Under the pieces are notes generated by a model. The model was not told the origin of the DNA and made no database searches. It saw nothing but the letters and a program-made list of their open reading frames with translations. The position numbers and the translations under genes are program-made. Source: a virus. Taken from it: a stretch of 20,359 nucleotides of DNA. This document shows positions 1,191 to 18,171 of this stretch, one piece after another; within the stretch, counting starts at the first letter, position 1, and each line of letters begins with the position of its first letter. Location: IMG/VR virus record IMGVR_UViG_3300018420_000158, positions 1-20,359 of that record; one strand, written 5' to 3'.

Positions 1191-1262
1191 CACCTTTTAA
1201 AAATTTTGACTTCTTTTCGCATTTACTTTACGATCCGAACACCCCTGCCGGGGGTACACCCA

Positions 1263-1313
1263 CCTAAACGTACTTAGTACGCAGACAAACCCCTAAACGT
1301 TATTAGTACGCAG
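1263..1313 (+). repeat. Two 22-nt direct repeats in the divergent control region
   Basis: Copies at 1263-1284 and 1292-1313 differ at two positions and are spaced 29 nt start to start. Both begin CCTAAACGT and end TTAGTACGCAG. The first contains the perfect inverted repeat CGTAC-TTA-GTACG (1269-1281); the second has a weakened version. Their place between the leftward primase promoter and the rightward -10 box at 1361 suggests operators, or less likely replication iterons. They are too few and too closely spaced for CRISPR. Confidence 0.6.
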
Positions 1314-1360
1314 TCACCCCCCCTATTATTAGGTAACGTTTTTTTCCTGTACGACCAAAG

Positions 1361-3640: not shown

Positions 3641-3647
3641 AAGGAGG
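3641..3647 (+). promoter_or_regulatory. Ribosome binding site deciding the DUF932-like start
   Basis: AAGGAGG lies 9 nt before ATG 3657. It favours this start over an upstream in-frame TTG at 3624, which has no such site. Confidence 0.7.
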
Positions 3648-5198: not shown

Positions 5199-5211
5199 AA
5201 GGGGAATACAA

Positions 5212-5427
5212 ATGAGCATGCAAGTTAAGAAAAGCGTTCACTTCACCGCCGAGCAAATCAAGGCGCTCCGTGATCTCGCAAACGGTGTCCGCTGGGCATC
5301 TGAGACCGACGGTAAGAAAAGCTTCTACGTGTCGAAGCCGGAGCAAAAACTGGCGGAGGATCTGTCTAACCTACTGCAAGGGTGCGACAGCTTGTACGTG
5401 AGCTTACGCGCTACCGAATCCGAGTAA
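5212..5427 (+). CDS. Small hypothetical protein, last gene of the early operon
   Basis: This 71-residue protein starts at ATG 5212, with AGGGGA between it and the previous stop. An in-frame longer version to 5137 would overlap the previous gene deeply and is rejected. The sequence reads VKKSVHFTAEQIKALRDLAN, then WASETDGKKSFYVSKPEQKL and LYVSLRATESE. It is an alpha/beta mixture without membrane segment or cysteine cluster. The family is not recognised. The tandem terminators at 5438-5490 follow directly, so it closes the transcription unit. Confidence 0.6.
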   Translation: MSMQVKKSVHFTAEQIKALRDLANGVRWASETDGKKSFYVSKPEQKLAEDLSNLLQGCDSLYVSLRATESE

Positions 5428-5437
5428 GGATTCCCTC

Positions 5438-5465
5438 GGGCGGTGTTCAACAGGCCGCCCCTTTT
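5438..5465 (+). terminator. First of two tandem intrinsic terminators
   Basis: GGGCGG (5438-5443) pairs with CCGCCC (5455-5460), loop of 11 nt, followed by CTTTT. On its own it is weak because the T run is short. Confidence 0.55.
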
Positions 5466-5490
5466 GGCCCCATCACGGGGCCTTTTTTTT
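5466..5490 (+). terminator. Strong intrinsic terminator of the early operon
   Basis: GGCCCC (5466-5471), loop ATCAC, GGGGCC (5477-5482), then eight T. It stops rightward early transcription before the control region. Confidence 0.85.
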
Positions 5491-5876
5491 GCCCGCCAGA
5501 AAAATACCTAAGTCCTTGTCTGGTCTGTCTTTCGGTATTTATTGAGGGGCCACTAGGGGCTATATAACCCAACCCCGACAGAGTCCGAAAAGAAATTACA
5601 ACCAGTTGTCGACAAGATAAAAATCGCGGGTGACGTGGTGCAACGCGAAGGAATTACTGGCGGGTGCGCTGTCGGTGTGCAGAGAAGGTAAGACCTTTGG
5701 TGTCATCACTGAGGTTGTTACGTAGAAAAATCCAGTAAACACGGGTGCGCGAGGGCCACGGGGGGTGCCCGTACTAGTACTAGCAAACTGTCGATAATTT
5801 TTATATTTTTGGGTAGTTGTTTCACGCCAATGTTTCACGCGACGGCTTACCATTGGTAGGGCCGGTGTACAGCCAT
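5491..5876. other. Intergenic stretch with no convincing gene
   Basis: I see no gene here that combines a good start, ribosome site and protein-like sequence. What it holds: an inverted repeat AAATACC/GGTATTT (5502-5508, 5534-5540); the palindrome TTGTCGACAA (5606-5615); a palindromic GTACTAGTAC (5771-5780); a direct repeat TGTTTCACGC (5818-5827 and 5831-5840); and CCAATG/CATTGG (5827-5832, 5850-5855). On the plus strand, a 31-codon reading frame from GTG 5630 to TAG 5725 (NAKELLAGALSVCREGKTF in its middle) and a neighbouring frame without start (QPVVDKIKIAGDVVQREGI) look protein-like. They may be remnants of a lost gene. Confidence 0.5.
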
Positions 5877-5912
5877 AAAAAAACCCCGATGGCAAGGGGA
5901 TACCAACGGGGT
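5877..5912 (-). terminator. Leftward intrinsic terminator of the small RNA
   Basis: On the minus strand ACCCCG (5912-5907) pairs with CGGGGT (5888-5883), with inner TGG/CCA, and is followed by T7 (5883-5877). Confidence 0.75.
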
Positions 5913-5971
5913 CTTACGCGGAGGGAGGTAAGCTCGGGGGTTTATATGTGTATATACCCCGGCGGGCTTAC
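5877..5971 (-). ncRNA. Predicted leftward structured small RNA, about 95 nt
   Basis: The RNA would start near 5971, behind the leftward promoter, and end in U7 at 5877. A 5' hairpin has an outer stem GUAAGC/GCUUAC (5971-5966 with 5933-5928). Its inner stem is GGGGUAUAUA with UAUAAACCCC (60-51 with 46-37 of the 5900s), one mismatch, loop CACA. Between this and the terminator hairpin lies an unpaired pyrimidine-rich segment with CCUCCCUCC (around 5928-5920), which is complementary to Shine-Dalgarno GGAGG. Hairpin, C-rich loop and intrinsic terminator is the classic layout of a trans-acting bacterial sRNA. No ORF with a start and ribosome site fits inside it. Existence and function are inferred from sequence only. 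Confidence 0.55.
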
Positions 5972-5977
5972 AGTCCC

Positions 5978-6006
5978 ATTGTACTGTCAGGTAGCTACCT
6001 TGTCAA
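5978..6006 (-). promoter_or_regulatory. Near-consensus leftward promoter with palindromic spacer
   Basis: On the minus strand TTGACA (6006-6001), an optimal 17-nt spacer and TACAAT (5983-5978). The spacer holds the 12-bp perfect palindrome AGGTAGCTACCT (5989-6000). It is the best sigma70 match in the window. Confidence 0.7.
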
Positions 6007-6054
6007 TAGCTCCGTATAATTTATTTTTCTTGACAAAACAACTCGGTAGTTACC
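5989..6054. promoter_or_regulatory. Paired palindromic operators of the two divergent promoters
   Basis: GGTAGCTACC (5990-5999) and GGTAGTTACC (6045-6054) are 55 bp apart. The first fills the spacer of the leftward promoter; the second runs into the -10 box of the rightward promoter. One dimeric regulator binding both would control both directions. The protein that binds is unknown; the winged-helix protein at 4758 is a candidate by position only. Confidence 0.5.
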
Positions 6055-6059
6055 ATAAT
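6030..6059 (+). promoter_or_regulatory. Rightward promoter for packaging and structural genes
   Basis: TTGACA (6030-6035), 18-nt spacer and CATAAT (6054-6059). The start would be near 6066, giving a leader of about 110 nt before terS. The spacer end overlaps the palindrome at 6045-6054. Confidence 0.6.
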
Positions 6060-6113
6060 AAGATTGTATTGAAGGGCGAGATGGCAGGGGAAGACAAATT
6101 CTATCGGCCATGT

Positions 6114-6140
6114 GACCAAGAGTTCCGAGACCACGAGTCC
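6114..6140 (+). repeat. Two short direct repeats in the terS leader
   Basis: GACCAAGAGTTCC (6114-6126) and GACCACGAGTCC (6129-6140), 15 nt apart. They sit just upstream of terS and of a T-rich tract (6141-6166). A TerS recognition site is possible but unproven. Confidence 0.45.
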
Positions 6141-6177
6141 TTTTTTACATTTTTTTTATATTTTTTGGTGTATAACC

Positions 6178-17340: not shown

Positions 17341-17376
17341 GTCAGGGGCCTTCGGGCCCCTTGACTCTTTTTATTT
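17341..17376 (+). terminator. Intrinsic terminator with UUCG tetraloop after the capsid genes
   Basis: GTCAGGGGCC, loop TTCG, GGCCCCTTGAC (one bulged T), followed by a T-rich tail CTTTTTATTTT. The stable UUCG loop makes it a strong stop. Confidence 0.85.
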
Positions 17377-17389
17377 TATCCTTTAAACT
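17361..17389 (+). promoter_or_regulatory. Promoter-like sequence overlapping the terminator
   Basis: TTGACT (17361-17366), 17-nt spacer and TAAACT (17384-17389), just before the small basic genes. The -35 box is the right arm and tail of the terminator. It would restart transcription for the lysis and fibre genes. Confidence 0.4.
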
Positions 17390-17418
17390 CAAGACAGGCC
17401 CTCCGGGGGTATACCTAC

Positions 17419-17634
17419 ATGAAACCAATGGGATACACAGAAAGGTTTGCAACAGCCCGTGCTAACATGGCAAAGGGCGGCAAAGCTAAAAAGAAAGGTA
17501 ACAAGATATGTCCGGCGGGTATTGCATGGGCAAAACGTACCTTTGATAAATACCCGAGTGCGTATGCTAATCTTGCCGCATCAAAATACTGTAAAGATCC
17601 CAACTATGCAAAGAAGTCTAAAGGCAAGAAGTAA
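17419..17634 (+). CDS. Small basic two-cysteine protein (CPxG...WAKRTFDKYPSAYAN type)
   Basis: This 71-residue, Lys-rich protein begins MKPMGYTERFATARANMAKG and carries the motif ICPAGIAWAKRTFDKYPSAY (30-49), then ASKYCKDPNYAKK. Only two cysteines are present (C31, C58). I know this motif from many phages of aquatic bacteria as small proteins of unknown function. The charge suggests DNA binding or packaging into the head. It shares YTER[FW]xxAR at its start with the protein at 17872. A plain strong ribosome site is not visible. Confidence 0.75.
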   Translation: MKPMGYTERFATARANMAKGGKAKKKGNKICPAGIAWAKRTFDKYPSAYANLAASKYCKDPNYAKKSKGKK

Positions 17635-17888
17635 TGGGTGAACTTAAAAAGTGGGTCAAACAAGATTGGGTACGTATCGGCACCGATGGAAAAATTAAAG
17701 GTAAGTGTGGTACATCCAAAAACAAAAAGAACCCTGACCGCTGTTTACCACGAAGTAAGGCTCAAAGTTTAAGTCAAAAAGACCGCGCCGCAACTGCACG
17801 TAAAAAGAAAGCAGGCGGAGCAAAAGGTAAGCAATTTGTTGCAAACACCAAAAAAGCAAGGGTAAGATCAAGTGGACGAAAAAAATAA
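17634..17888 (+). CDS. Small basic two-cysteine protein (NPDRCLPRxKAQSLS type)
   Basis: The 84-residue protein starts in a TAATG overlap with the previous gene. It reads ELKKWVKQDWVRIGTDGKIK, then GKCGTSKNKKNPDRCLPRSK and AQSLSQKDRAATARKKKAGG, ending VANTKKARV. Cysteines are C25 and C37 only. It matches, as I recall, phage and bacterial proteins grouped as DUF5872, whose role is unknown. It is strongly basic (Lys/Arg), so nucleic acid binding is likely. No membrane segment is present. Confidence 0.75.
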   Translation: MGELKKWVKQDWVRIGTDGKIKGKCGTSKNKKNPDRCLPRSKAQSLSQKDRAATARKKKAGGAKGKQFVANTKKARVRSSGRKK

Positions 17889-18171
17889 GTACACTGAACG
17901 TTGGGAAATGGCTCGTGGTGGTCGCACAAAAAAGAATGTAAATTTATCTGTGGGACGAGGTGAAAAACGCTCCGTAAAAGAAGGCGGAGGTTTGACAGCT
18001 AAAGGTCGCGCAAAGTATAATAGAGCTACGGGATCAAATCTTAAAGCTCCTGTAACTGGTAAAGTAAAGCCCGGAAGTAAAGCGGCAAAGAGACGCAAGA
18101 GTTTTTGCGCTAGATCGAAGGGATGGACAGGCGAACGCGGTAAGGCCGCTCGTCGTAGGTGGAAGTGCTAG
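17872..18171 (+). CDS. Small basic two-cysteine protein (KRRKSFCAR type)
   Basis: The 99-residue protein starts at GTG 17872, overlapping the previous gene by 17 nt, with AAGGG upstream. It begins YTERWEMARGGRTKK, continues EGGGLTAKGRAKYNRATGSN and KPGSKAAKRRKSFCARSKGW, and ends ARRRWKC. Cysteines are C79 and the last residue C99. The 'GGLTxKGRxxYNRxTGxNLKxPVT' to 'KSFCAR' pattern matches, as I recall, the DUF6321 kind of phage proteins, of unknown role. It is extremely basic. Together with the two preceding genes it makes a trio that could condense DNA or act on host nucleic acids. Confidence 0.75.
   Translation: MDEKNKYTERWEMARGGRTKKNVNLSVGRGEKRSVKEGGGLTAKGRAKYNRATGSNLKAPVTGKVKPGSKAAKRRKSFCARSKGWTGERGKAARRRWKC

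Follow-up and report, generated by a model that had tools for sequence, protein, structure and literature searches.

The locus studied here raises the question of what a small RNA, apparently encoded leftward beside the terminase genes, could do for the phage that carries it. The window, that is, the whole stretch of DNA that was analysed, is a linear viral contig of 20,359 bases carrying genes for primase, DUF932, terminase, portal/head-tail, major head protein and endolysin. Its TerL has best identities of 49-57% to phages HTVC103P, CRP-603, CRP-13 and HMO-2011, and because these closest phages infect SAR11, Roseobacter and SAR116 bacteria, the sequence makes an alphaproteobacterial host likely. 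The bacterium is probably marine. The lineage consists of podovirus-like phages distantly related to the HMO-2011-type phages, whose known hosts are Alphaproteobacteria. A first-pass annotation had proposed a phage-encoded sRNA with an anti-Shine-Dalgarno loop at this place, between gene 5212-5427 and the terminase operon and back to back with the terminase-operon promoter (Table 1).

The near-consensus minus-strand promoter of that proposal is present and kept in relatives, and its score of 11/12 is reached or exceeded at only three sites in 20 kb, this one included. With the start placed 7 nt past the -10, the RNA is 95 nt long and folds at -39.6 kcal/mol, compared with -22.1 +/- 3.3 for shuffled sequences (z = -5.35; 0/200 as good), which bears out the predicted two-level hairpin unit of about 95 nt as two stable hairpins. 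Seven Ts stand directly 3' of the terminator hairpin, in agreement with the intrinsic terminator with U7 described earlier. The unit had also been said to hold no ORF; we found no conserved one, and the sole frame of the ORF list that enters the sRNA begins with TTG inside the terminator. The C-rich segment CCUCCCUCC (5928-5920), which had been taken as single-stranded, sits at the end of the first helix and continues into the unpaired linker between the two hairpins. It is thus mostly unpaired, as was claimed, but it is a linker and not a loop, and a second C-run, UCCCCU, forms the loop of the terminator. Unpaired bases average 18.8 C against 2.2 G, which is partly a consequence of the C excess.

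Table 1. Coordinates in the window of the sRNA gene, the shared box, the predicted targets and the adjacent terminase-operon elements (the three box copies belong to the profile seed and score high by construction).
Feature	Position	Strand	Basis or score
Leftward sigma-70-type promoter, TTGACA-17-TACAAT	5978..6006	-	score 11/12; kept in relatives
sRNA, about 95 nt	5877..5971	-	start inferred from promoter; model R1 98.6 bits (window in R1 seed)
5' hairpin, GUAAGC (5971-5966) with GCUUAC (5933-5928), inner helix GGGGU/ACCCC	5928..5971	-	fold and covarying outer helix
5' box AAGCCCGCCGGGGUA, S copy, common to two other phage promoters	5950..5971	-	39.9 bits
C-rich segment CCUCCCUCC, mostly unpaired linker	5920..5928	-	fold; CCUCC in 12/24 sequences
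Intrinsic terminator hairpin, covarying stem	5880..5915	-	fold and covariation
Terminator loop UCCCCU	5895..5900	-	C-run in 24/24 sequences
Promoter and box, early rightward operon, E copy	1206..1268	+	42.0 bits, E 4.9e-11
Promoter and box, late cassette, L copy	17361..17427	+	43.5 bits, E 1.7e-11; GGGGGUA just upstream of ATG 17419
Predicted target, gene 5212-5427: ribosome-binding site AAGGGGA and ATG	5199..5214	+	loop pairing, G4 site
Predicted target, gene 17419-17634: GGGGGUAUACC before ATG 17419	17404..17421	+	loop pairing, GGGG site
Divergent promoter of terminase operon, TTGACA-18-CATAAT	6030..6059	+	promoter scan; conserved in relatives
Structured 5' leader of terminase operon	6060..6145	+	long imperfect hairpin in relatives

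Were transcription to start right after the -10, a 5' GGGA would pair with UCCC of the linker, which is unlikely because the usual start distance puts the start of the RNA further 3'. A GGG...CCC 5' hairpin right after the -10 covaries, yet it was not counted as an RNA helix, since with the usual start those Gs precede the RNA. We also observed an inverted repeat across the leftward start site (5977-5964, minus strand; GGGATTGTAAGCCC, GGAATTGTAGGTTCC, GGGTCTAAGACCC and GGCAGTACACCTGCC in relatives), the pairing of which is kept among relatives though half of it should precede the transcript start. A repressor, to which the palindromes GGTAGCTACC and GGTAGTTACC in the window's two promoters pointed, was rejected, most relatives being without them.

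Relatives were gathered by TerL and by 5'-end pattern, which gave 24 distinct sRNA sequences, the window included; the matches to the 5'-end pattern share the 5' end by construction and the TerL matches do not. Thus at least 23 further distinct sequences keep the whole unit at the same place, back to back with the terminase-operon promoter. The 24 sRNAs are 83-110 nt long counted from the -10, each beside a divergent promoter. In their alignment 94% of cells are paired and 9 of 19 pairs have changed on both sides, with 41 such cells against 10.9 in shuffles; part of this count comes from a GGG/CCC pair possibly outside the RNA, and the terminator alone holds seven pairs with two-sided changes. 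The outer 5' helix covaries as well (GUAAGC/GCUUAC, GUAGGU/ACCUAC). The terminator loop contains CCC in every sequence and CCCC in 21 of the 24, with C-runs from C3 to C7. As a control, CCC occurred in the loops of nine of 34 terminator-like hairpins in nine genomes, and eight of these nine were sRNA terminators. The covariance model R1 gave clear matches; in more distant relatives its matches were weak, again at this site and on this strand. Whole contigs held one strong copy each. Weak R1 matches were also seen on the plus strand about 500 bp upstream of the sRNA in G011, G015 and G009.

Conserved promoter, covarying stems, terminator and C-rich loop in the relatives strongly support the proposed phage-encoded sRNA. 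Lack of conservation of stems, C-rich region and terminator in related phages had been named as evidence that would speak against it, and the relatives keep all three. It is very probable, from these sequence comparisons, that the locus belongs to a real and undescribed family of phage sRNAs. Our search of the literature on pelagiphage small RNAs and marine-phage structured RNAs returned nothing relevant, and the exact 5' pattern had no match in bacterial or archaeal genomes. R1 gave no confident match when run on the complete records of eight phages that are cultured or named (CRP-3 13.1 bits, E 0.58). Phages still further removed (L034, L036, L053, L068, L077 and the SAR11 phage HTVC115P, locus L116) retain both divergent promoters and the leftward RNA start, which reads GCCGGG... 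after a short inverted repeat (CTGGG in L034), and the C-rich terminator loop is mostly absent from them. R1 itself gave HTVC115P no score, its match being one of promoter position and 5' motif.

For the function of the RNA, the reading we prefer, at a probability of about 0.5, is that the single-copy gene of about 95 nt encodes a trans-acting sRNA whose C-run represses G-rich phage mRNAs in the manner of sX13. Host RNA polymerase would transcribe the sRNA, and the transcript would end at its own terminator. The C-rich loop (UAYCCCC), together with the C-rich linker where present, would pair with G-rich phage ribosome-binding sites, and at gene 5212-5427 (AAGGGGA) and gene 17419-17634 (GGGGGUA) this pairing would repress translation; G-rich sites in host mRNAs could possibly be hit too. 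Dedicated promoter, two hairpins, terminator, conservation and covariation support the sRNA gene at the level of sequence.

The choice of targets rests on a test in which the terminator loop of each of 17 genomes or contigs was paired with the start regions of its own genes, 37 ortholog groups in all. Two groups passed the permutation threshold (5% = 0.19), gene 17419 with a mean rank of 0.07 (5 genomes) and gene 5212 with 0.15 (14 genomes). Groups 17419 and 5212 are also the only two of the 37 with a GGGG ribosome-binding site in most members (100% and 86%; next 29%), gene starts having been chosen by a script that uses Shine-Dalgarno strength. The G4 site of gene 5212 recurs at 21 of the 24 loci listed, with one or two loci appearing again in another register, and gene 17419-17634 is the first gene of the late cassette that includes the endolysin. 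In energies that ignore loop geometry, the real loop reached -14.0 at gene 17419, against -8.5 +/- 1.05 for shuffled and -9.8 for reversed loops. At gene 5212 the reversed loop (-11.3) paired as well as the real one (-11.4), and therefore only the C-run matters there. The loop-shuffle test was significant for both genes, whereas the reversed-loop control separates only 17419.

These results alter the anti-Shine-Dalgarno part of the first-pass annotation. A canonical CCUCC does occur in the linker, in only half of the sequences (12/24), but the invariant C-run is that of the terminator loop, and judged from the aligned sequences 'anti-GGGG' would be the better label for the invariant UAYCCCC. 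The messages suggested as targets, with AAGGAGG at 3641 and GAGGAGG at 1140, did not stand out: linker pairing of their start regions ranks at 4-6% of window sites, and neither ortholog group is a leading one in the cross-genome loop-pairing test.

The part of the sRNA that is most conserved is the 5' box. With a profile of the promoter and first 40 bases, the same arrangement (17-nt spacer, 12-13 nt, then ACCCC(U)GCCGGGGGUAWACCC) was found at three places in the window, at the early operon, the sRNA (6006-5939) and the late cassette. The full-length or long relatives G001, G002, G009 and G011 likewise have three promoter-plus-box copies. Several other copies are, like those of the window, in the profile seed and score high by construction; copies outside the seed are among others G001 14851, G002 23333, G009 27286 and G010 15831. 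In some relatives the early copy has an extended -10 upstream instead of a good -35. As the box stands at early, sRNA and late starts, what is most conserved in the sRNA is a start element that it shares, and not an sRNA-specific feature. After the early box, positions 1262-1352 (plus strand) hold near-identical repeats CTAAACGTACTTAGTACGCAG and CTAAACGTTATTAGTACGCAG, a C7 run and a T7 run, which may mark a further short RNA with a terminator, and these features are not conserved in the relatives examined. A perfect TTGACA-18-TATAAT promoter was observed at 17992-18021 (plus strand), inside ORF 17872-18171 and directly before the endolysin gene.

Several known systems resemble the locus. In sX13, C-rich loops repress mRNAs with GGGG motifs and Hfq is not needed (PMC3771888). 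Like sX13 of Xanthomonas (RF02232), our sRNA is about 100 nt long and has stable stems and C4-C5 loop runs (PMC3771888), the runs being in the terminator loop only. The partners of sX13 have GGGG near the start codon (PMC3771888), and for our sRNA two such partners, genes 5212 and 17419, are predicted. Unlike sX13, it is a phage gene with two hairpins instead of three and without sequence kinship; the RF02232 covariance model gave 19.4 bits against a gathering score of 50. The ar14/cuckoo sRNAs of Alphaproteobacteria (e.g. NfeR1) are similar in keeping C-rich unpaired motifs while stems change and in their terminator hairpin (PMC10746234), but they have three hairpins, and their CCUCCUCCC motif is absent here. 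The motif, hairpin and score tests thus place the sRNA outside both families, and a search of the window against Rfam 15 gave no match at gathering, the sub-threshold suhB and sX13 matches being taken as chance. It shares with the class of C-rich trans-acting sRNAs a promoter of its own and an intrinsic terminator, by sequence evidence, and if the pairing model holds it would regulate mRNAs by pairing, as C-rich riboregulators do. Among phages, OOP, sar and c4 RNAs (lambda, P22, P1/P7) are likewise short, and they regulate phage genes, sar and c4 being described as antisense RNAs on ant mRNA (PMC12197685). Ours differs from this cis-antisense type in overlapping no conserved gene, and the swap test with the terminase leader was negative. 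In the put/nut leader signals of HK022 and lambda, one element opens several phage transcripts. The shared element at the start of several transcripts is common to those signals and our box, and the box differs in sequence and shape.

The box also supplies the main rival to target pairing, in which the RNA is a by-product, a terminated leader, and the box is the control signal, either a phage-regulator site or a put-like RNA signal as in HK022. We regard this as possible but doubtful. The promoter with its 17-nt spacer and box recurs at early, leftward and late starts in the window and in full-length relatives, and the 5' box is the most conserved part even where the 3' half differs or the terminator is missing; a covarying terminator stem and an invariant C-loop would, however, be needless in a by-product, and no leftward gene follows until the primase at 1131, the intervening genes being oppositely oriented. 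It speaks against the loop-pairing model that a 5' hairpin can take up the G-run in both the late and the early leaders. Loop target recognition cannot be the function common to all phages of the family, because distant phages have the promoter pair and 5' box without the C-rich loop, and target pairing leaves the box unexplained. A more novel but doubtful reading would be a phage-wide RNA circuit in which early, sRNA and late units share the box and the sRNA's terminator loop UAYCCCC complements GGGGGUA of the box, so that the sRNA would recognise messages bearing the box and coordinate early and late expression while its own box is hidden in a helix. Quite unlikely is that the sRNA acts as a decoy, its box titrating a phage or host RNA-binding protein that otherwise acts on early and late leaders: all three RNAs carry the same box, and its early and late copies each form a small 5' hairpin, but in the window's sRNA a longer helix takes up the box, and no such box-binding protein is known.

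Host messages could instead be the main targets, the sRNA being a phage counterpart of alphaproteobacterial anti-Shine-Dalgarno sRNAs that lowers host translation. The unpaired segments are C-rich, half of the linkers contain CCUCC, the terminase relatives infect Alphaproteobacteria, and the ar14 family of these bacteria uses CCUCCUCCC motifs (PMC10746234); CCUCC is not conserved, however, and the two phage targets (5212 and 17419) fit better, which makes this reading rather unlikely. Control of the divergent terminase leader by base pairing deserves hardly any weight. In the window the terminator CCCCUUGCCAUC can pair well with GAUGGCAGGGG of the leader, but among 15 relatives own pairs were no better than swapped ones (permutation p 0.48 for the loop, 0.63 for the whole RNA), and the pairing was rejected on this comparison. 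The leader itself is a candidate second RNA element besides the sRNA: the closing stem of its hairpin varies with pairing kept (GUAC../GUAC, GCUGGG/CCCAGC, GUGGGC/GCCCAC), and a U-run follows in many relatives.

It is also very improbable that the stretch matters mainly as DNA, as a packaging start site, with an RNA that is incidental or active in packaging like phi29 pRNA. Near 5760 (minus strand) a very conserved block of CCCCCCGTGGCCCTTGCC type separates the sRNA from the upstream genes, a place at which one may expect a cos or pac site, but compensatory stem changes and near-consensus promoters favour a transcribed RNA, and phages with a large terminase are not known to need a packaging RNA. 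The block (TTGCTAGTACTAGTAC..ACCCCCCGTGGCCC, about 5740-5800, minus strand) recurs in many relatives, distant ones included, and lying upstream of the terminase genes it could be a cos or pac site. The interval from the block to the sRNA terminator contains, at 5817-5845, two direct repeats TGTTTCACG (CGTGAAACA on the minus strand), to which the small terminase subunit may bind. The upstream operon ends at 5425-5497 (plus strand) in GC-rich hairpins and T8, where the sub-threshold suhB match falls.

Understood phage regulatory RNAs are relatively few, and we found none described for this lineage. An sRNA family conserved beside the terminase genes of many environmental phages, for which two definite target messages are predicted and a promoter-leader box is shared, would open RNA-based timing in aquatic phages to testing.
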